Shown in pieces: positions 34,701-45,374 of a stretch of DNA of 64,000 nucleotides (position 1 is the first letter of the stretch; every line of letters begins with the position of its first letter). The notes under the pieces were generated by a model that saw only the letters and a program-made list of their open reading frames with translations, did not search any database and was not told the DNA's origin. Source of the stretch: Candidatus Baltobacteraceae bacterium. GTDB lineage: Bacteria; Vulcanimicrobiota; Vulcanimicrobiia; Vulcanimicrobiales; Vulcanimicrobiaceae. The stretch covers positions 1 to 64,000 of the forward strand of contig DASXGW010000001.1 of the NCBI GenBank assembly GCA_036488875.1. The letters run 5' to 3'. Both the position numbers and the translations under genes were made by a program.

Positions 34701-34763
34701 GCTGCGGAGGCCTCTATTAAGGGCAGCAGGGGCGCACCCCTATTCCGCGAATCGTTCGCAAAT

Positions 34764-37100
34764 ATGATTTGGGAATTGTTTGCAAATATGCTGCTGGGCG
34801 TGGCGTTCGCCGGCGTCTTGACCGGGACCGTCGTCGGTAGCGACGGCGTCCCCGCCGCTCTGGCGACGGTTACGGCAAGGGGCCAGAATCTGAGCCTCTC
34901 CACCCGAACCGACGAGCGCGGACGGTTCGCCTTCTCGACGCTGGCGGTCGGCGAATATGACTTGCTGGCGGCCAAGGGTGACCTGCGGGCGCTGGCACGC
35001 GTGGAGTTGACGACGTCGGGCACCGATGTGCGGTTGACGCTGATGCCCCTGACGACGATTCACCAGACCGTCGTGGTCCGGCCGGCGGCGCCTCCGGTTC
35101 GCGGATCGGGCACGGATCTGACGCTCAATCAGACGGTACTCGCTCACTCGCCGGCGTCCACGAACTTTCCCTCCCTGTTGGCACAGCTGCCGGGAGCCGC
35201 TCGTGGCGCCAACGGCGTGATTCACATCAACGGCGATCACGGCGATATCAACTACATCGTCGACGGTGTGTCCATTCCGCAAGCGATCAACCGCGAAGTC
35301 GGCAGCGAGTTCGACGTGGCCAACGCCGCCTACGTCGACGTAATGGAAGGCGCGTATCCCGCGCAATACGGGGGCCGGTTCGCGGCCATCATCGACATCG
35401 GGACCCGCGCCGGCGCTACGACACCTGGATTTTCCGGGTACGCCGAGGGTGGTTCGTTCGGAACGTTCGATTCCTCGATGGAGTATCACACCCCGATCGG
35501 TCCGGGTTCGCTCGTGATCGGCACTCACGCCGGACAGACCAACTACGCGCTCGATCCCCCCGATCCGGCGTCGCAGCACAATAACGGCAGCAACACCAAT
35601 CAATTTCTGCGCTACACGCTTCCCAGCGCGTCCGGCGATTACGTCAACTTCACGCTTAGCCACTCGCTGCAGACGTTCCAGATTCCCAACGATATCGCCG
35701 GCGGCGAACCGCCCGGCACCGACGACAACGAGATTCAAAACGACACCTTCGTGGCGCTGCAGTATCACCACGCCATCGGCGACCACGGGACGCTCACCTT
35801 CGGTCCGTCCTACAAACGCTCGAACATTCTCGATTACGGCGATCCGTACAACGATTTCATCTACGGCGAAGCCGTCAACATCGCTAACGGCGGCACGCCG
35901 AGCGATTGCGCGACTGCCGTTAAGACCGGAAACTATTCGCCGACCACCTGCGCGTTTTCGCTCTACGGAAACTCGCTGGCTAGCGACGTCGCCTTCAATG
36001 GCGACTACGATCTGCGCAGCGAACGCCACGACGTACGAATGGGCGGGAACTACGACCTAACGCTCGTGCCGAAAACGTATGCCGTCACCTTGCAGCCGAT
36101 GAATTTCTTGGCGCCGATATACACGCCCCAGACGCCTGGAGCCGCATACACCGTCACCGACAACGCGCCAAACGTCGGGCACACGGAATCGCTGTACCTT
36201 CAAGACAGTTGGCAGATGGGCAGCGATTACGAACTCGATTACGGGTTGCGCGAAGACGCGTTTGGGCTCTTCTCGACGCAGTTCCAGCGCGGGTTCTCCC
36301 AGCTGAGCCCCCGCGCCAAGTTCACGCGCTTCTTCGGCAAGCGGGCGAGCGTCTACGCTTTTTACGGGCGATTCTTTACGCCGTTTAGCTTCCAAAACGT
36401 TTCGCCGGAGGCCGCATATCTACTGAACTTGCCGCTGCAGCGCACGCCGGCGTCGTTCGATCTAAAGCCTCAGCGGGATTCCGACTACGAGATTGGGGGG
36501 CATCTGCCGGTCGGGAGCGGCGATCTCGGGCTGCGCGTCATGCAGAAGAACGCCACCGATCTCATCGACGACACGCAAGTGGGCGTTACGGCGTTTCACG
36601 AGGACATCAACTACGCGGAGGGCCGCATCGCCACACAGACGGTATACTATCAGTTGCCGCTGGCGCGCAACGGTCGCGTCTACGTTTCGGCCAATCACAC
36701 GTATTCTGAGAACAAGGGCTGCGAGACTCAGCTATTAGCACCGTGTTTCGGTTCGCCGACGGATTGGACGCCGGCCAATCACATGCAACAGTGGGGCGCG
36801 ACCTCCGGCGCAATCCTCAACGATGCCCGCGGCGGCTGGTTCTCAGTCGACGGCGAGTACGGCAGCGGCCTATCGTCGAGTGCTTGCGCCGCGACGCTGC
36901 AAACGCTTCAATGTGCGTACACACCTCACATCGTCTTCGACGCGGAGAAGGGTATCGCGCTGGGACCCAACGTCGCGCTCACGATGCGCGTGGGTAACCT
37001 TTTGAACGACCGGTACTTCGTTACGTTCGAGAACGCACAGGGCAACCACTACGCACAAGGCCGAACGTTTGCGCTCGGCGTGCGCTTCGCGTCACCGTGA
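34764..37100 (+). CDS. TonB-dependent receptor with regulatory-like N-domain
   Basis: A 778-residue outer-membrane receptor. A short signal (MIWELFANMLLGVAFAG) precedes a carboxypeptidase-regulatory-like fold (LTGTVVGSDGVPAALATV). A plug follows (HINGDHGDINYIVDGVSIPQ, AYPAQYGGRFAAI), then a beta-barrel ending in FALGVRFASP. ATG 34788, eight codons later, is an alternative start; neither has a strong ribosome binding site. The promoter region is shared with divergent hldD. The substrate is not evident. The 3' end overlaps the convergent gene by nine bases. Confidence 0.85.
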   Translation: MIWELFANMLLGVAFAGVLTGTVVGSDGVPAALATVTARGQNLSLSTRTDERGRFAFSTLAVGEYDLLAAKGDLRALARVELTTSGTDVRLTLMPLTTIHQTVVVRPAAPPVRGSGTDLTLNQTVLAHSPASTNFPSLLAQLPGAARGANGVIHINGDHGDINYIVDGVSIPQAINREVGSEFDVANAAYVDVMEGAYPAQYGGRFAAIIDIGTRAGATTPGFSGYAEGGSFGTFDSSMEYHTPIGPGSLVIGTHAGQTNYALDPPDPASQHNNGSNTNQFLRYTLPSASGDYVNFTLSHSLQTFQIPNDIAGGEPPGTDDNEIQNDTFVALQYHHAIGDHGTLTFGPSYKRSNILDYGDPYNDFIYGEAVNIANGGTPSDCATAVKTGNYSPTTCAFSLYGNSLASDVAFNGDYDLRSERHDVRMGGNYDLTLVPKTYAVTLQPMNFLAPIYTPQTPGAAYTVTDNAPNVGHTESLYLQDSWQMGSDYELDYGLREDAFGLFSTQFQRGFSQLSPRAKFTRFFGKRASVYAFYGRFFTPFSFQNVSPEAAYLLNLPLQRTPASFDLKPQRDSDYEIGGHLPVGSGDLGLRVMQKNATDLIDDTQVGVTAFHEDINYAEGRIATQTVYYQLPLARNGRVYVSANHTYSENKGCETQLLAPCFGSPTDWTPANHMQQWGATSGAILNDARGGWFSVDGEYGSGLSSSACAATLQTLQCAYTPHIVFDAEKGIALGPNVALTMRVGNLLNDRYFVTFENAQGNHYAQGRTFALGVRFASP

Positions 37101-37925
37101 CGGCGGCGTCTGCAGGCGGAAGAGCGTTTCGCGCTCCGTCGTGCGGTACTGGCCTAAACTGACGGTTTTCTGAACGAGCGTCTCGTCGATTATCGTCGGA
37201 ACGGCTCGCGCGACGTCGTATGTGAACGTCGAGCTGCTGTCACCGGTGCTGTACGGCCCGGCTTCACCCTTGGAGCTGCGCCGCTCGTCGATCGTCATCA
37301 CGCCGGCCGCATTATGCAGAACCGCGAACGTCGCCTGAAACGACGACTGCGGGCCGCCGTCTTCGAGCTTCCAGTGCGTCTGATCGCCCTTCGAATCCAC
37401 CACGCCGGGCGAAAGGAAGCGCAGCAACGTTACTTCCTCTAACGAGATGGGTTTGCTCGGATCGCAGATGATCGCGGTGGTCGGAGAGACGACGCAGGTT
37501 ACCGATGAAGCGTCACGCTGGTCGTGTGCTTCGGTCACCTGCACGACCAAACTGCCGTCGGTCTGTTTTCCGATCATGCCAATGGTGATCGAGCCGCGAT
37601 CGCGCGGGGCGTCTGCACCAACGTGATAACCAAAGCCGCCTTTGCAGTCGACTTGAAACCAGTCGATGCCGCCGTTGCCGATGTCCATTCCGCCGCTCAT
37701 TTTGCCGCTTACCTTAAGGCCGCCGCTTAAACAATCGTCGGGACTGATCTCGCCGATCGGGTCGCCGTACCCGCCATTATCCGGATGACCGGTGGCGCCG
37801 GGCCCGGAGCGGGACTCGTACCCGTAGACGAGCGTGCGTACCGGCGCCGGCGTTTGCGCCGGTGTCGCGAGCGGGAAGCCGCCGGCAAGCAGGCCGACGC
37901 AGAACACAGCAACTCGTGCGCGCAC
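37092..37925 (-). CDS. Secreted protein of unknown function
   Basis: GTG 37925 starts a 277-residue protein with a signal peptide (RARVAVFCVGLLAGGFPLATPAQ). The mature part is beta-rich with four cysteines (DDCLSG, VDCKGG, VTCVVS, IICDPS) and glycine-rich turns such as SGKMSGGMDIGNGG. I recognise no family. It follows the minus-strand TonB receptor by 44 bases and is probably the last gene of the copper operon, which would make it a periplasmic or surface helper. Confidence 0.6.
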   Translation of the reverse strand: MRARVAVFCVGLLAGGFPLATPAQTPAPVRTLVYGYESRSGPGATGHPDNGGYGDPIGEISPDDCLSGGLKVSGKMSGGMDIGNGGIDWFQVDCKGGFGYHVGADAPRDRGSITIGMIGKQTDGSLVVQVTEAHDQRDASSVTCVVSPTTAIICDPSKPISLEEVTLLRFLSPGVVDSKGDQTHWKLEDGGPQSSFQATFAVLHNAAGVMTIDERRSSKGEAGPYSTGDSSSTFTYDVARAVPTIIDETLVQKTVSLGQYRTTERETLFRLQTPPSR

Positions 37926-37969
37926 CTTTACAGGAGCGCGGCACGAGCTGCCGTTGTGACGAGCCTACC

Positions 37970-40369
37970 TCAGAATGGCGCGGTTAGGCGCAACAGTACC
38001 GACGTTCCGTTGGCGATCTGCGTGGTGTTGAAGCCGTTGGCCACCTTGATCGGATACTGATGATTGAGGACGTTGAGTAGTTGCAGCTGGATTCCGAGGC
38101 CCTGGTCCTGCCCAGCACGTCCCGGCGTCACCGTACGGCCGAGTGAAAGGTCGACGGTCGTGTGCGCAGGTAACGTTCCCGCCAAGTTGACGTTGGCATC
38201 CTCGAACTGAACGGGGAAGCCGCTGCCGTAGTTGCCTTGGATCGTTGCAAACCACAGCTTCTGCGGGCCGCCGAACCGGTGCGTGTAGCCGGTCGTTGCA
38301 GCGACGGTTTCACTATGATCTTCTAGCCCGAGCTGCGCTTGGCACGAGATACCCGTGGGGTTGGGTGGGAAGAGGAAGGTTGCTCCCGAGATACAGGCCG
38401 CGTACGAACCGGAAATCGTCGACGTAAAGAACCACTGGTCGCCGTCGAGCATGCGGTCCTGCAGGCGGAACTCGACGCCATTGTTGGTCCCGATCGAGTT
38501 GTTATAGACCGCGAACAGCGGCGTGTTGAGGAACTGCGTTGTGTCGAGAATGTTCACCACGCTTTTGGTGAAGACGTTGAACGATCCGGTGAAGCTCGAG
38601 TTGAACGAATGAACCATTCCGACCTCGAAATACGAATCGCTTTCTGGCTTGAGGTCGTAGGCGGGGTGCGCGGTAGCGCAGGGGCTCTGTTGCGAGAGCG
38701 CGACGCAATCCTCACGGACGTCTTCGAGAAGGGGCGCGGCGTAGAAACGGCCGTAGTAAACGTGCCCGACGTTACGACCGCCGTCCCACAAGGTCACACC
38801 GATGCGCGGACTGATTTGGAAGCCGCCTACGTAGCCGGTCGAATGATCCCAGCGCAGCCCGTAGTTCCAGGTGACGTTCGGACCCATTTCCCACTTGTCT
38901 TCGGCATAGACGCCGATTTGGGATCCGGCTTGGCCCTGAGGAACCGCCGGCGACGCGAAATACGGGTCGGCGATTTTTCCGCTCGCTTTACAATCGACGT
39001 AATAACAAGCGAAGAGCTGATTGCTGATCGCGGTTTCCCGGTTGACGTCGAAGCCGATTTTCCACGAATGGTGCTCGGTTGCGCGAAAGTCCGACGCGCG
39101 CAATCCAAGGTATTGTGCGTACGTGTTCTGCTGCAAGCCGATGCCATGGATGGTGTTCGCGCACGTCGGCGGACAGACCGAGAAGTCGGGTGAGGTGGCC
39201 AGCACGTCGAGCGGCAGGTCGCCGTCGTAATCGATGGTGGTGTCGCGCCACCAGGGAATGACTTGGAAGACCCCGTTGCCGTCGCGCGAGACCGTCGTCC
39301 AGTTGAGATTCGAGAAGTGATCGTACTCGCGCTGCGTGTCCAGCGTTCCGGGAGCGCTGACGATAGGATCGTACGGGTTGGTCGTGCTGGTATTAATTGG
39401 AACTTGATATTGCGAAAGTTGATTGCCGTAATCGAATGCCAGCGTGCTCCGCGGCGATAGCTGCGTGATGGAGCGCAGGAACTGATCGCTGTCACTGCTC
39501 TCGTCGTTGATCGCATTGAACGTCGGTGCGTCGATGCCGCGGTCGCTCGTATCGGAGTTCGCATTTAGAAAGACTTCCGTCGAGCCCGACCGCGACGACA
39601 GCGAGAGACCTCCGGTGGACTGTCCTTGGTTGCCGAAGCCGCCGGTGAGCGATCCGAAGACGCCTTGGGGGATGTCGGTCGGCCGATTACTGATGATGTT
39701 GACGACGCCGCCCATGCGGTCCCCGCCATACTCCGCCGGGATGGCTCCCGTCAACACTTCGATCGAGTCGACGTCTTTCGGATCGATTATTTCGGCGAAG
39801 TTCGACGTTGTGGCTAACGGCAAGGGAGCTCCGTCGATGTTATACGTTACGCCGTGAAAGCCGTTAATCACCGGCTCGTTGTACGAGAACTGAATAACGC
39901 CGGGAAGGGTGGCAATAACCTTGTCGAGGCTATTGTTTACCGGCGACGTCTGGAGAGCAGCGCGATCGATGATGTTGACCGAGGGCGGGTTGCTCTCCAC
40001 GCCGCTTCCCGTTGCGGTCACCGTGGTATGGGCGATTTCCGCTAGTTTTGTCGTCAACGCGATGTTTATCGTCGCAACCGAATCGCTCGTGACCGTCAGG
40101 AGCGACTGCAGGTCGTGAGCACCCTTCGCGTGCGCAATGAGACGATAGTTTCCAAATGGGACCTGTGCAAAAGCGTAGGCGCCGTCCGGTTTTGTCGTTG
40201 TCGTAAACTTCGACCCCTCGCCTTCGAGGGTGACGGTGGCCCGCGGAGCCGGGCGGCCGTCGAGGGTGATGGTTCCGCGCACGATGCCGATCGAGTCGGC
40301 GCTTGCGGGTACGCAAAGGAAGAAACACGTCAAAAACGCGGCCGCAATCGCCGCAGCAATACGAAACAT
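37970..40369 (-). CDS. TonB-dependent receptor, copper-operon-linked
   Basis: A 799-residue receptor with a perfect AAGGAG seven bases before ATG 40369. Domains are a signal peptide, a regulatory-like Ig fold (GTITLDGRPAPRATVTLEG, about 30-110), a plug (INGFHGVTYNIDGAPLP, IPAEYGGDRMGGVVNIISNRPT) and a beta-barrel ending in the C-terminal Phe typical of outer-membrane proteins. It sits directly downstream of the copC/copD block, so uptake of copper or a copper-chelate is a reasonable guess. The extracellular cysteine pairs (CYYVDC, CVALSQQSPC) could stabilise loops or bind metal. Confidence 0.85.
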   Translation of the reverse strand: MFRIAAAIAAAFLTCFFLCVPASADSIGIVRGTITLDGRPAPRATVTLEGEGSKFTTTTKPDGAYAFAQVPFGNYRLIAHAKGAHDLQSLLTVTSDSVATINIALTTKLAEIAHTTVTATGSGVESNPPSVNIIDRAALQTSPVNNSLDKVIATLPGVIQFSYNEPVINGFHGVTYNIDGAPLPLATTSNFAEIIDPKDVDSIEVLTGAIPAEYGGDRMGGVVNIISNRPTDIPQGVFGSLTGGFGNQGQSTGGLSLSSRSGSTEVFLNANSDTSDRGIDAPTFNAINDESSDSDQFLRSITQLSPRSTLAFDYGNQLSQYQVPINTSTTNPYDPIVSAPGTLDTQREYDHFSNLNWTTVSRDGNGVFQVIPWWRDTTIDYDGDLPLDVLATSPDFSVCPPTCANTIHGIGLQQNTYAQYLGLRASDFRATEHHSWKIGFDVNRETAISNQLFACYYVDCKASGKIADPYFASPAVPQGQAGSQIGVYAEDKWEMGPNVTWNYGLRWDHSTGYVGGFQISPRIGVTLWDGGRNVGHVYYGRFYAAPLLEDVREDCVALSQQSPCATAHPAYDLKPESDSYFEVGMVHSFNSSFTGSFNVFTKSVVNILDTTQFLNTPLFAVYNNSIGTNNGVEFRLQDRMLDGDQWFFTSTISGSYAACISGATFLFPPNPTGISCQAQLGLEDHSETVAATTGYTHRFGGPQKLWFATIQGNYGSGFPVQFEDANVNLAGTLPAHTTVDLSLGRTVTPGRAGQDQGLGIQLQLLNVLNHQYPIKVANGFNTTQIANGTSVLLRLTAPF

Positions 40370-40420
40370 AAGAACTCCTTCGGTGGAAAAAGCGAACGAA
40401 AAGGACGCGCGTCGTGCGCG

Positions 40421-40978
40421 TTAGGCGTTCGCAGTCACCGGAGGAGCGCGGAGAAGCCGTGCGCGCCACACCGTGTCGCGTGCGATGTTAAGAGGTGGGG
40501 CGCCACGCGCGATTCCGAGCTTGCCGAGGGACAGGTCGATAACGCGGCACGCAGTCGCGATTGCAAAAACGATTCCGGCCAGCGCCCGGAGCGCGGCGGA
40601 CACGAAGCGGAGCATTATCCACGCGGTAAGCGCCAAGATCACGACGATCGCGAGCAACGGGGCGCCGGCGTGCGCGGCTTCGAGGCGCTCGCCAAGCGTG
40701 AACCACGCGGCTCCCAACGTCGCAATGCCACCCCAGCTGGGCAGCATCGAGCGAACGCGCGCCGCTAGCACGGTGCCGTCAGCGGTACAGCGAGCCCCCG
40801 ACCATAGCAACGCTCCGGCGGCCGACGTGAGGCCGGTCACCGCCGCAAGGGTAAGCTCTATGAACGTGCTATGATAGGCGCCGCCCCAAGCGTGCTCTTT
40901 GCCGAAGAGAACGGCGTGAGTCACAAGGGCGGCTACTAAACCGAGGACTATCGCGCCGGGAATCTGCCGCAGAGTCAC
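40421..40978 (-). CDS. Five-TM His-containing membrane protein, copy 1
   Basis: GTG 40978 gives 185 residues starting VTLRQIPGAIVLGL, matching its paralog at 44111-44674. About five TM helices are seen. Conserved between both copies are THAVLFG.EHAWGGAYHS (three histidines), ADGTVLAAR.RS and LE.AHAGAPLLA. The membrane-embedded histidines and the place next to the CopD fusion suggest a copper-related role, but no family name is known to me. It starts four bases after the CopD stop and is followed by the TonB receptor. Confidence 0.65.
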   Translation of the reverse strand: MTLRQIPGAIVLGLVAALVTHAVLFGKEHAWGGAYHSTFIELTLAAVTGLTSAAGALLWSGARCTADGTVLAARVRSMLPSWGGIATLGAAWFTLGERLEAAHAGAPLLAIVVILALTAWIMLRFVSAALRALAGIVFAIATACRVIDLSLGKLGIARGAPPLNIARDTVWRARLLRAPPVTANA

Positions 40979-40982
40979 AGCG

Positions 40983-42791
40983 CTAGCCGCCGTGACCGGC
41001 GTGATTTGCCGCCGCAACCGGAATACTCTTAACCCGCGCTGCATCACTGAGAAGGGTGCTGGGATCGGCAAGACCGCCCGCCCCACTCGCCATCCAGCGT
41101 GCGCGAATGTTGGCGCCTCGATCGAGCATCAGCTCCGTCTCTCCGCCGTCTGCGGGCGAGTCGAACAACTCGAGTGTCTCACGAACGTCTTGCGACACGT
41201 CTACGATCAACGGGTTCTTCTCCGTTGACGGATGTAACGCAACGGCAATCACGTGTAGCCCGGCGGCAGCAAGACGGGGCTGCAATTTCGCTAATTGCTC
41301 CAGCCGCGCACGCGGTGCGTGCCCCGCGAACAAGACGACCAGGGCCGGTCCGTTCTTGAGCGTCTGACTCAGTGTATTTTGCGCACCGTTTTGCTCGAAG
41401 GCGAAATCCGGCAGTGGAACCGCCGCTGCCGTGCTGATTTGCGAACCGGTGTGTTGCGTGAGGTCGCCGGCCGCGCGCGCGAGCACGAAGTTGATCACGT
41501 CCCACCGTTGATCTGGAGACAGCTTGTCGGCAAAGCCAGGCATAACCCCGTTGTCGGTGCCGTGGCCGATCCACCAGAACATCTCGCCGACCTTGTGCGC
41601 GAACAGGTGCGGTTCGGTCAAATTTGCCGGCCGAACGGAAAGCTTGCCGGCAAGCGGACCGTCGCCGCGTCCGCCGGCTCCGTGGCACACGACGCAGTTC
41701 TGCGCGTACAGCGGTGCGCCGCGCGCTATTGACGGCGCCGCATAGGGCTGCGTCGACGCGTAAAAACTCGTCGGGTACGCGCGAACGAATCCTTCGCTTA
41801 GAGAAAACCGGAACGGGAGCGGCCAGCGCGGCTCGGTGTGCAGTCCAGGCGGCAATATGCCGATGATGCCGACGATGGCAAGTACGAAGACGCCGAGACA
41901 CGCCTCGATCGTCGCGTTGCCGAATACCCGCCGGCTGATTTGCAAGCACAGGCTGTCATCGGTCGCGCTGTCGGCGAGGTGGGGGAGGAGCCGCCGCTGA
42001 TTGATACCGGCGACACCAATCATCGCCGCAAAGAGCGCGATCTTCAGCAGTAGGAGTTGACCGTACAGCGTTCCGAGGAGCGCCGGAACGCTGCCGGCTA
42101 AGAACCACGTGTTGACGACGCCGGTAACGATCAGCGTCCCTACGGCCGAGAGACCGAGCACCGAGAAGCGCAGCGTTGCGATCCGCGCGACCGCAACCGC
42201 TTGCGAACTCATGTCCCGGCAGGCTTGAACGAGAAATATGACGAGCGGTAAGAGCGCGCCGAGCCACGCGCCTGCGGCCAGCAAATGCAAGATGTCGGCC
42301 GGCGCATGAAGCGCGTCGAACGGAACGTCTTCTGTCGCAGCGCCGTGGCCCGCCCATGCGAGCGAGGCGACGAACGCGGACGCGGCGAGCAAACCAACCC
42401 AGCCCACTGCGTGACTGCGCGTTCGTGCCTGCAGCGCGAGGCAGATCGCTATCGCGACGGTGAGTCCGGCGCGAACGATCCAGTCGATGCCGAAGTGCGT
42501 TTGCGTCAGGACGATCCCGAGAACGCTGCCCTGAAGAGCCGATGCGAGCGGCATCCCGCTCATGTTCGATGCGACGATGACGAGCCAACCGGCGCCGCTG
42601 ACGATTGCGACGAGCAGGCTTACCCAAGCGAGCGCAAAGAGCCGTCGATCCAGCCGTTCCCGCAGCGCATGCGCTGCCGGCGTTCGCGCAAACGCCGGCC
42701 ACGCTATCATGCACCAGAAGACGAAGGTGCCTTCGAGCAGGGCGCTCGCCGCGTAGTGGAGCAGACGCGTCGACGATAAGAGCGGGTCGAT
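40983..42791 (-). CDS. CopD-cytochrome c-thioredoxin-fold fusion
   Basis: A multi-TM CopD domain (first 300 residues) is fused to a class-I cytochrome c domain with the heme site NCVVCHGAGG and axial MPGF. A C-terminal thioredoxin-like region (ALVVLFAGHAPRARLEQL) lacks active cysteines. CopD domains move copper across the inner membrane; the heme domain suggests electron transfer coupled to it. The first canonical start is ATG 42710. However, 27 in-frame residues upstream, including STRLLHYAASALLEGTFVFW, are the expected first CopD helix. They are reached only from an ATC at 42791, which lies behind GGGGAG, so a non-canonical start is proposed. copC ends five bases upstream. Confidence 0.8.
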   Translation of the reverse strand: MDPLLSSTRLLHYAASALLEGTFVFWCMIAWPAFARTPAAHALRERLDRRLFALAWVSLLVAIVSGAGWLVIVASNMSGMPLASALQGSVLGIVLTQTHFGIDWIVRAGLTVAIAICLALQARTRSHAVGWVGLLAASAFVASLAWAGHGAATEDVPFDALHAPADILHLLAAGAWLGALLPLVIFLVQACRDMSSQAVAVARIATLRFSVLGLSAVGTLIVTGVVNTWFLAGSVPALLGTLYGQLLLLKIALFAAMIGVAGINQRRLLPHLADSATDDSLCLQISRRVFGNATIEACLGVFVLAIVGIIGILPPGLHTEPRWPLPFRFSLSEGFVRAYPTSFYASTQPYAAPSIARGAPLYAQNCVVCHGAGGRGDGPLAGKLSVRPANLTEPHLFAHKVGEMFWWIGHGTDNGVMPGFADKLSPDQRWDVINFVLARAAGDLTQHTGSQISTAAAVPLPDFAFEQNGAQNTLSQTLKNGPALVVLFAGHAPRARLEQLAKLQPRLAAAGLHVIAVALHPSTEKNPLIVDVSQDVRETLELFDSPADGGETELMLDRGANIRARWMASGAGGLADPSTLLSDAARVKSIPVAAANHAGHGG

Positions 42792-42795
42792 CGCC

Positions 42796-43167
42796 TTAGC
42801 TCCCCTTGACCTGGAACGTGAAGTCTCCTTGGGTCGTGTGCGTATCGACCGACAAGGCGTGCCATTTCACCGTGTACGTGCCGGCCGGCAGCGATTTGAG
42901 CTTGATGTCCATCTCTTGTTTGTTGTCCGGATCGACCCCGGACGTTCCGTCGCTCACGGACGCTCCGGATTTATCGGTGACTTGTATCCAGCTAAAAGCC
43001 GGCTCGAGCTCCTGCGTGAACCAGATATGCATGGTCGCGGGTGCGGACGGCACCGTGCTGCCGACCGCCGGATCGGAATGGTCGAGGAACGCGTGCGCCC
43101 GAACCGCTGCGGGTGCGAACACCATTGCGACGAGGAGAAAGAATGCAGTGATTGTACGCATCGTCAT
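42796..43167 (-). CDS. copC: Copper-binding protein CopC
   Basis: A 123-residue periplasmic CopC: signal peptide, then HAFLDHSDPAVGSTV, the His-containing N-terminal copper site and family signature. IWFTQELEPAFSWIQV and the C-terminal HALSVDTHTTQGDFTFQV follow, the latter holding further copper-ligand histidines. CopC binds periplasmic copper and passes it to CopD. ATG 43167 overlaps the previous stop (TAATG) and has GGAAA four bases upstream. Confidence 0.95.
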   Translation of the reverse strand: MTMRTITAFFLLVAMVFAPAAVRAHAFLDHSDPAVGSTVPSAPATMHIWFTQELEPAFSWIQVTDKSGASVSDGTSGVDPDNKQEMDIKLKSLPAGTYTVKWHALSVDTHTTQGDFTFQVKGS

Positions 43168-44072
43168 TATTTCCAGAGATTCGTCTTGATGATGGGTTTG
43201 CCGAACCAGCTTTTATAGAAGGTGTCGAGAAACACGTGATACTGAAGGATGAATCCCGCGCCTTGCCCTTGCGACGTCGCTTTCGTGGCCGGGAACACTG
43301 CCTCTCCAGCCAACTGCCACGTGGGTGCGTCGTATAAGAGGCCGGGAGCGATCGTTCCGGTCGGCGTACCTTGATCCGGGCTAGTCCACGACATTTCGAC
43401 GAGTGGCGTCAGACGCGTAAACCACGGCGTGATGTTCTGCGCTTTGACGTTCTGCTGTAGATAGGGCATCGAATACTGCAGCGAAAACGCGTAATTCCAC
43501 GCGTTGGGGTCTTGGCTAGGCGTGTCGGAAAACGAGCGGCTGATCTCACCGGTAATCGCGAAGGGGCGCAAATACGGGCTTGCCGTCCCGAAGCCTTTGC
43601 CGAAGTAGAACGTCGGTGAAGTGTTTCCGACGCTGCCGATTGCGCCCGCGTTGCGCAGTTGCGCCGAGCCGGTTCCCGGTATCTCGCGTACTAGCCCCAC
43701 CGACCACACGAACTCCTGATGCGGGTGAACGTCGCTGCAGGGATGCTGATCTTTAAGCGTTAGCTGGACGTTGTCCCAACCGGCTAAATGCTGACCGGCG
43801 CCGCGCTGCGTGACGTAGTCGTCGTTGATCGCGAAGGTCACGTCTTCGGTGATGGATTTATCCCATTCGAATCCGTAGCTGTTGCTTTGACCGCCCGGTG
43901 TGGGAGTCCAACCGATCGTGGGCAGCGACACTTCATCGCCGACTCCGGGATCGTCCATGGTCAGTGTCGTGGGAAAGACGCGGTCTCCGCAGACGACGTG
44001 CGCCTGAGCGGTCGAACGCATCACAAGCATGCAGGTAAGCACGGCGACGAGCGCCGCAACGAAGCGGGACAT
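43167..44072 (-). CDS. Outer-membrane beta-barrel-like protein of the copper operon
   Basis: ATG 44072 has GAGG six bases upstream and begins a signal peptide (MSRFVAALVAVLTCM). The 301-residue protein is rich in amphipathic beta strands and ends KPIIKTNLWK. Motifs such as HVVCGDRVFPTTLTMDDPG and DQHPCSDVHPHQEFVWSVGL include a His/Cys cluster that might bind metal. It looks like an outer-membrane channel or anchor. Coupling to copC by TAATG supports a role in the same copper path. No precise family is recognised. Confidence 0.65.
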   Translation of the reverse strand: MSRFVAALVAVLTCMLVMRSTAQAHVVCGDRVFPTTLTMDDPGVGDEVSLPTIGWTPTPGGQSNSYGFEWDKSITEDVTFAINDDYVTQRGAGQHLAGWDNVQLTLKDQHPCSDVHPHQEFVWSVGLVREIPGTGSAQLRNAGAIGSVGNTSPTFYFGKGFGTASPYLRPFAITGEISRSFSDTPSQDPNAWNYAFSLQYSMPYLQQNVKAQNITPWFTRLTPLVEMSWTSPDQGTPTGTIAPGLLYDAPTWQLAGEAVFPATKATSQGQGAGFILQYHVFLDTFYKSWFGKPIIKTNLWK

Positions 44073-44110
44073 AGGTACCTCAGGTTGGAGACGGGAGTGC
44101 TTTTGCGCGA

Positions 44111-44674
44111 TTACGCGCGTGTTAAAGCAAACTCGACCGGAGGAGGACGGGTAAAGCGGCGCCACGCTTTGTCATCTTGAGCGTAGCGCGGCGCGATGCG
44201 CCGAGTGAGTTCAAAGGCCACGCGCCGCTGACGCTGGACGTCGAGCAAACGCACGACCAAAAGGACGATTTCAGCGAGCGCGCGCAGCGCGATCGCCGCA
44301 AAACGCAAGACGAGCCAGGCCGAGAGCGCGACGATAGCGAGGACGGCCAGTAGGGGTACCCCAGCGTGCGCCGTTTCGAGGCACTCACCGAGTACGTACC
44401 ATCCGGTACCGCAGACGGCCACGGAGAACCAGCCCGGCAGCAGCGAGCGCATGCGGGCGGCCAGTACGGTTCCGTCGGCCGCACACGCGGCGCCCGTCCA
44501 GAGCAAGGCTCCGGCGGCCGCCGTGAGGCCGGTCACCGCCGCGAGGGTAAACTGAAGGAGGGCGCTATGGTAGGCTCCGCCCCACGCATGCTCGCCGCCG
44601 AAGAGGACGGCGTGGGTGACGAGGGCGGCGACCAGTCCGAGGACGATCGCGCCCGGAAGGCGGCGCAGGGTCAC
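44111..44674 (-). CDS. Five-TM His-containing membrane protein, copy 2
   Basis: GTG 44674 gives 187 residues. The first about 130 match the copy at 40421-40978 very closely (VTLRRLPGAIVLGL, THAVLFGGEHAWGGAYHS, LETAHAGVPLLA), and the DNA is also similar, so the duplication is fairly recent or maintained by conversion. The C-terminal about 50 residues have diverged. It is the first gene of the minus-strand copper run; the other copy sits after CopD. Function unknown, probably a membrane metal-binding component. Confidence 0.65.
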   Translation of the reverse strand: MTLRRLPGAIVLGLVAALVTHAVLFGGEHAWGGAYHSALLQFTLAAVTGLTAAAGALLWTGAACAADGTVLAARMRSLLPGWFSVAVCGTGWYVLGECLETAHAGVPLLAVLAIVALSAWLVLRFAAIALRALAEIVLLVVRLLDVQRQRRVAFELTRRIAPRYAQDDKAWRRFTRPPPVEFALTRA

Positions 44675-44822: not shown

Positions 44823-45374
44823 ATGGGCACGCACGCGTTGGTCGAAAATGCCGATACCGTGAGTCTGGTCTGCGCACTGCTCGTGCGCTTTCCGGAGCTC
44901 GCGTCTATTCGGTCCATGCCCGCCGATCGCACCATACGGTTAACGTATGCGCTGCGGCATCGTTTGGATCGCGCCAAGCAGTCTGCGGTTGCCGAGGCGA
45001 TCGAAGACCACGTGGCCAGCTTTCTCGTTCTCGCCAAAGACGAAGCCGAGACCTTACGAGTCGAGTGCGAAAGCGACCGCGGCATGACCTTCGTGCATGT
45101 TACCCGCGATCTTGAGAGTTTCACAAAGGAAGAGCTGGAGCTGCAGACCGCACTCTTCACCGAACGCTACGCCGACGCGCTGGTACGCAATCCCGTCCCC
45201 GACGATCACTTCGACGCCGATCCCGCGGCGCAGGACGAAGCGGCGCTCTACGCCATCGAGGCGCTCCGCGATCCCGCGCAATCCAAGAGCCTGGTGGGTT
45301 TCCGCGAAGAGAAGCGCGTACTGGTGTACTTTCTGAAATCCCAAAAGAAAGCCAAGGCGTCGGCTCGCCGATAA
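44823..45374 (+). CDS. Conserved-looking cytoplasmic protein, unknown
   Basis: A 183-residue soluble protein from ATG 44823. A GGAGGAG sits 15 bases upstream, which is longer than usual. The sequence is mostly helical and acidic (SVAEAIEDHVASF-like, EELELQTALFTERYADAL) and ends KSQKKAKASARR. I recognise no family. It directly precedes the YmdB-type gene and overlaps its proposed start, so the two are probably co-translated. Confidence 0.6.
   Translation: MGTHALVENADTVSLVCALLVRFPELASIRSMPADRTIRLTYALRHRLDRAKQSAVAEAIEDHVASFLVLAKDEAETLRVECESDRGMTFVHVTRDLESFTKEELELQTALFTERYADALVRNPVPDDHFDADPAAQDEAALYAIEALRDPAQSKSLVGFREEKRVLVYFLKSQKKAKASARR

Follow-up and report, generated by a model that had tools for sequence, protein, structure and literature searches.

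The minus strand of a 64,000-nt stretch of DNA from a Candidatus Baltobacteraceae bacterium (contig DASXGW010000001.1, positions 1 to 64,000; hereafter the window) carries a metal operon in which one small membrane protein is encoded twice: immediately upstream of the gene for a TonB-dependent receptor (leader A) and immediately upstream of a set encoding a probable outer-membrane protein (OMP), CopC and CopD (leader B). As judged by sequence, both copies are quite probably cis-acting, membrane-inserted ribosome-arrest leaders that gate the start site of the next gene. A sequence-only reading of the window had put the duplicated protein forward as a possible new membrane component of a path for copper or another metal, a role that was not supported. 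Given its position immediately upstream of its cassette, its presence in one copy per cassette, its C-terminal R[P/A]PP and a helix that sequesters the next Shine-Dalgarno sequence, the anatomy is that of a cis-acting regulatory leader. With more reservation, we favor the broader proposal that these proteins represent an Eremiobacterota four-helix family, unrelated in sequence to DUF2946, in which the same codons would supply both arrest peptide and anti-Shine-Dalgarno strand, His and Glu residues would sense metal, and the whole would form a transferable switch placed before at least five kinds of metal cassette, twice in this operon.

The leader protein and its C-terminal motif

Over 181 amino acids, the two leaders share 61% identity (E 8e-70), and both contain THAVLFG.EHAWGGAYHS and LE.AHAG.PLLA; the duplication and the two shared motifs had been correctly read from the letters. 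In a 77-row tree the copies are sister sequences (99/89 support), and the duplication is thus local and arose in this lineage. Five transmembrane segments had been claimed for each copy, in place of which AlphaFold2 predicts four membrane helices (residues 3-25, 33-62, 82-98, and 108 onward) and one short helix, followed by a loose C-terminal tail (predicted local distance difference test score (pLDDT) 89). No Pfam or NCBIfam family was found for either leader (Pfam was scanned to E ≤ 1), and no solved fold matched at E ≤ 0.001. GlpG and Psb35 were rejected as identities because their weak matches lay far below cut-off.

Among 22 aligned members, His21, His29, Glu97, Glu100 and R.PP are invariant, and neither a conserved Cys nor a conserved Met is found. 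The model places His29 within loop 1, Glu97 where helix 3 ends and Glu100 within the following loop. These three residues would share one side of the membrane, which we infer to be the periplasmic side if the basic N terminus, the middle loop and the tail are inside. In 72 of 74 copies, 72-78 residues separate the E..E pair from the C-terminal motif.

A feature that had gone unnoticed in the sequence-only reading is the C terminus itself, which is RPPPVEFALTRA in leader B and RAPPVTANA in leader A, each followed directly by the stop. R[P/A]PP was present in all 76 leaders with an intact C terminus (RPPP in 63, RAPP in 13), at a distance of 1-10 residues from the stop with a single exception at 17; four other copies were not counted, being truncated by contig ends or interrupted by a run of N or a frame break. 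By comparison, R.PP was observed 12 times in 825 other proteins, nearly all of these being other leader-like proteins. R[AP]PP occurred twice in 846 non-leader proteins (264,262 residues) against 7.7 expected after shuffling (30 shuffles, standard deviation 2.9, minimum 2), and RGPP not at all against 3.7 expected, the numbers being small in both cases. The direction agrees with reports that proteomes avoid arrest motifs elsewhere (PMC12992588). With Arg-x-Pro-Pro near the C terminus of a small membrane or exported protein, the leaders resemble RxPP arrest peptides (ApdA, ApdP, SecM-like), in which Pro at position 2 is reported to retain arrest in part (PMC12992588).

Pairing between leader and Shine-Dalgarno sequence

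The gaps between leader and next gene are short, mostly 26-69 nt, and the Shine-Dalgarno sequence of the next gene pairs with nucleotides that extend from the Arg codon to just beyond the leader stop. For junction A, the minimum free energy of folding was -36.7 kcal/mol (z -4.6), with 0 of 200 shuffles as low; for junction B it was -21.7 kcal/mol (z -2.2). Averaged over 32 genera, the longest helix that includes the Shine-Dalgarno sequence was 7.1 bp long as opposed to 5.6 bp with permuted partners, a difference reached in 0 of 2000 permutations, and the same result (0 of 2000) was obtained for duplex energy. At 182 other gene junctions, own and permuted partners both gave 5.03 bp. When synonymous codons were redrawn at background usage, the helix averaged 5.1 bp and the observed mean of 7.5 bp was reached in 0 of 100 draws; the real helix exceeded this null in 29 of 32 genera. 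Consistent codon choice was seen at the third motif codon, which is CCT in 48 of 75 junctions, as compared with 5.8% of Pro codons overall. For a named helix scored in 23 sequences, 79% of cells were paired, as against 28-43% when it was slid, and 20 double changes were counted versus 8.9 in shuffles (0 of 500). Raw duplex energy separates only moderately (≤ -12 kcal/mol in 84% of leader junctions and in 58% of other gene junctions), the test aimed at the Shine-Dalgarno sequence being the sharper of the two. Thus, an above-chance, covarying helix connects the 3′ end of the leader to the next Shine-Dalgarno sequence, as in masking of the SecM and CutF type. A search for known RNA switches in Rfam returned no family at gathering score.

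The helix does not always engage the motif codons. In 27 of 75 junctions the Ala/Pro codons of the motif lie outside the longest helix and R[P/A]PP is still kept; in genera g25, g2, g34, g20 and g30, CCG or CCA encodes most of the prolines, and the helix is placed farther along, at subsequent codons or the stop. Such retention argues against PPP being a mere by-product at the RNA level. The helix starts no more than 27 nt from the Arg codon in 73 of 75 junctions. From the usual size of a ribosome footprint, a ribosome halted at the motif would cover this start or lie next to it.

Operon layout and genomic contexts

The minus-strand gene order described from the letters (membrane protein, OMP, CopC, CopD fusion, second membrane protein, TonB receptor, secreted protein) is real, and its features are collected in Table 1. 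CopC and CopD passed Pfam cut-offs, and the cytochrome c domain continues the same open reading frame (ORF) as CopD. Leader A starts 4 nt past the CopD stop. The divergent conserved gene that adjoins the leader locus is at window positions 44823-45374.

Table 1. Features of the double-leader operon, in window positions
Feature	Position	Strand	Remarks
Leader B (membrane protein copy B)	44111-44674	-	187 aa; GTG start 44674; precedes OMP-CopC-CopD cassette
RPPP codons of leader B	44138-44149	-	CGT CCT CCT CCG; anti-Shine-Dalgarno strand
Junction hairpin B	44078-44149	-	Predicted; OMP-gene Shine-Dalgarno GAGG (44078-44081) with RPPP codons
Secreted beta-rich protein, probable outer-membrane barrel (OMP)	43167-44072	-	No Pfam family; model pLDDT 55 (low confidence)
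CopC, periplasmic copper-binding protein	42796-43167	-	PF04234, 1.5e-23
CopD fused to cytochrome c and a weakly thioredoxin-like tail	40983-42710	-	NF033808 barely above cut-off; PF00034
Leader A (membrane protein copy A)	40421-40978	-	185 aa; GTG start 40978; precedes TonB receptor
RAPP codons of leader A	40439-40450	-	CGC GCT CCT CCG; anti-Shine-Dalgarno strand
Junction hairpin A	40374-40447	-	Receptor-gene Shine-Dalgarno AAGGAG (40375-40380) with RAPP codons
TonB-dependent receptor	37970-40369	-	Plug and barrel; partner of the leader in most relatives
Secreted protein, family unknown	37092-37925	-	Start 37925 or 37907; not conserved at this place in relatives

The window belongs to a 3.7-Mb assembly, and its relatives are metagenome-assembled genomes of Candidatus Eremiobacterota, several of which come from palsa and bog samples as judged from isolate names. 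By profile search, the leader was present in 71 of 99 genomes of one family of this phylum. The leader nearly always stands directly upstream of a metal cassette, on the same strand as its neighbor wherever a neighbor was called, the cassettes comprising a TonB receptor, OMP-CopC-CopD, cytochrome-porin with multicopper oxidase, a CopC-CopD fusion, SCO1 or CusF. The ancestral arrangement is leader followed by TonB receptor, between the divergent conserved gene and a sugar epimerase gene. OMP-CopC-CopD follows the leader at L033, L062, L063, L065, L068, L070 and L071, and at L068 it occupies the place where the receptor otherwise stands. Cytochrome-porin and multicopper oxidase follow at L131, L140 and L143; one uncalled leader ORF precedes the same pair at each of L130 and L141. 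CopC-CopD fusions were found behind the leader at L047 and L108, SCO1 at L048, and CusF and then a receptor at L043. The link to copper that had been claimed for the operon is thus upheld in other genomes, in which relatives of the leader directly precede CopC/CopD, multicopper oxidase, SCO1 and CusF genes; the search for the family and its neighbors, which had been proposed as a check, places homologs of the membrane protein beside copper genes.

The tree indicates at least four separate origins of a leader before the OMP-CopC-CopD set. The OMP of the window is 71-73% identical to those of L033, L062 and L063, whereas the leaders of these sets are only ∼37-43% identical. Such divergence of leaders behind which the cassette is conserved implies that the leader was re-acquired or replaced locally and is fitting for a cis-acting element.

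Several further arrangements were observed. A second double-leader operon, at L131 2000-12000, consists of leader, cytochrome-porin, multicopper oxidase, leader, TonB receptor and permease, and so parallels the layout in the window with different cargo. Leader-receptor pairs with ZnuA behind them, together with ABC-3 permeases or a FUR gene, occur at L035 227-7936 and L044 5506-9378. Long CopD ORFs homologous to that of the window are present in the other OMP-CopC-CopD cassettes, and at L047:7814-9826 (+) a signal peptidase S26 domain shares one ORF with CopC and CopD. In G020, the OMP-CopC-CopD cassette is found outside the usual locus, near a transposase-like ORF (L033:376-1731, +), a possible hint of mobility. 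The protein at L030:10572-12251 (+) and its relatives, usually encoded beside a multicopper oxidase, carry a CxxCH motif at each end in addition to a cytochrome c domain, and give the impression of porin-cytochromes. In the window itself, a second TonB receptor without a leader is encoded at 34758-37097 (+); a related receptor adjoins a FUR-family gene in L103, L110, L116 and L136.

Elsewhere in the phylum, four weak and divergent matches were obtained. Those at L152, L153 and L154 are small membrane proteins with a C-terminal FKRPPP or FNRPPP, the first heading a cytochrome-porin/oxidase set and the other two a TonB receptor; the match at L155 is a short fragment. In profile-profile comparison, the leader profile matched two more leader groups at 97.0% over 162 columns and at 95.8% over 91 columns. 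A direct scan of genome contigs with the leader gave no match, and a search for further leader types in the genome of the window gave marginal matches alone (E ∼0.007). Small membrane proteins ending in NRPPP or KRAPP were also observed at L153:3126-3797 (-), L038:12821-13396 (-), L048:6846-7436 (-) and L047:6493-7137 (-), preceding TonB receptors or SCO genes, with the Shine-Dalgarno sequence behind them predicted to be masked in most. The family studied here is one part of a broader leader superfamily.

Proposed mechanism, alternatives and known systems

The following minimal model is proposed. The nascent leader would insert its four predicted helices into the membrane, placing the conserved His21, His29, His36, Glu97, Glu100 and His103 at what the model and charge pattern suggest is the periplasmic side, and there they would probably serve to bind a transition metal, copper being the likeliest. 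Judging from the motif, the ribosome could then arrest once it reaches R[P/A]PP at the C terminus. An arrested ribosome would cover the strand otherwise paired with the next Shine-Dalgarno sequence, which would permit translation of the TonB receptor behind leader A and of the OMP-CopC-CopD set behind leader B; with no arrest, the ribosome would finish, the helix would re-form and the next gene would be off. Metal binding would shift the balance between arrest and completion. If CruR-bfrG is a guide, copper would relieve the arrest and thereby turn off the uptake receptor. The presence of two leaders would follow from an action confined to the gene that comes immediately after each.

Several results weigh against this model. 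His36 and His103 are not invariant among the aligned leaders, and RPPP, the majority form here, is reported to be only partly active relative to RAPP when assayed in two arrest peptides (PMC12992588). Of the two window junctions, B is the weaker. RNAalifold returned no consensus structure for the gapped 23-row junction alignment, which is why the permutation, synonymous-codon and named-structure tests were used. When the 26 nt beneath a stalled ribosome were removed, the predicted pairing of the Shine-Dalgarno sequence fell from 0.89 to no less than 0.73, because other pairings form. Finally, ZnuA with ABC-3 or FUR genes behind the receptor at L035 and L044 suggests zinc as the metal in those lineages.

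This last observation bears on the identity of the signal. The same arrest leader could instead sense zinc, nickel, cobalt or, as with MifM and ApdA, membrane insertion status, which we regard as possible but not likely. It would fit the lack of conserved Cys or Met and the finding that His-only CutF-like clusters precede HupE/UreJ genes (PMC9973294), but most of the non-receptor cargo is copper-specific (CopC, CopD, multicopper oxidase, SCO1, CusF), and no Sec or YidC genes were found behind the leaders read. Transcription attenuation or Rho-dependent termination at the junction, in place of Shine-Dalgarno masking, appears improbable: although CruR acts via Rho (PMC9426467) and one weak terminator-like stem is present at junction A (40421-40405), the gaps are far shorter than the 162 nt of cruR-bfrG, and pairing is specifically with the Shine-Dalgarno sequence. 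There is very little to recommend a trans-acting copper-handling component, whether transporter, chaperone or partner of the TonB receptor or CopD. Four predicted helices with conserved His/Glu and an association with metal genes would suit such a protein, but it would need no copy per cassette, would not always have to be the immediate upstream neighbor, and would leave both the C-terminal motif and the paired Shine-Dalgarno sequence unexplained; the finished leader protein may nevertheless have a second function in trans. Simple translational coupling, with R[P/A]PP a by-product of anti-Shine-Dalgarno codons (CCTCC encodes Pro-Pro) and neither arrest nor sensing, would explain why CCT-rich Pro codons pair with the Shine-Dalgarno sequence in most junctions but is highly unlikely, since the motif persists in the 27 junctions with the helix on other codons, position 2 is only Ala or Pro, Arg is invariant though usually outside the helix, and both the His/Glu residues and the E..E-to-motif spacing are conserved.

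The cis-acting arrest leader proposed here has several precedents. The DUF2946 profile (PF11162), which describes the CruR/CutF family, exceeded its cut-off in 0 of 99 family genomes; weak matches in G012 and G078 were rejected, because their frames contain stops or run antisense to called genes. Among the traits of that family, the C-terminal RAPP-like motif and the position at the head of metal or copper operons are shared, and CXXC/CxxxC is absent. By the tests run, the leaders are not DUF2946 proteins, and from sequence they would appear to work like CruR/CutF. CruR (Bordetella pertussis BP2923), a small membrane or exported protein with a C-terminal RAPP, is under copper control and is encoded by the first gene of an operon containing the TonB receptor gene bfrG (PMC9426467), a precedent for such a receptor under a RAPP copper leader. 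It differs in that the window leaders have no DUF2946 match or CXXC but four predicted helices and His/Glu, and a short gap with a masked Shine-Dalgarno sequence instead of a Rho terminator region.

CutF of Rhodobacter capsulatus also precedes a copper gene, that for the multicopper oxidase CutO, and has a C-terminal proline motif and a stem-loop that shields the next Shine-Dalgarno sequence (PMC9973294), but it is secreted, shorter than 150 residues and contains CxxxC. The published search for CutF-like proteins dropped those longer than 150 residues and required a cleaved signal peptide (PMC9973294); therefore, the leader family of the window would have been missed. Eremiobacterota are not named in the main texts, supplements excepted, of the literature searched. 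Copper has opposite effects through CruR and through CutF, and the window leaders could follow either.

Masking is likewise established for SecM-secA, in which arrest near the C terminus opens a stem-loop that hides the next Shine-Dalgarno sequence (PMC10987492); SecM, however, senses Sec export and uses RAGP, whereas the cargo of the window leaders consists of metal genes. ApdA/ApdP share the RAPP-type arrest motif but precede Sec/YidC-related genes instead of metal genes. By description, SLIV_18480 of Streptomyces lividans is similar, being a four-helix RAPP/RGPP arrest peptide with conserved His before a metal gene (PMC12992588), but it is actinobacterial and has a His/Met site and a Cys pair. 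Until now, the known cases of metal control through nascent-chain arrest have been a few proteobacterial DUF2946 leaders and Streptomyces candidates. If correct, the leader model would account for an otherwise puzzling duplicated membrane protein, would show which metal cassettes are controlled, and would imply that such control evolved or diversified more than once, here through an independent family whose sensor is a polytopic membrane protein, in a phylum that is largely uncultured.

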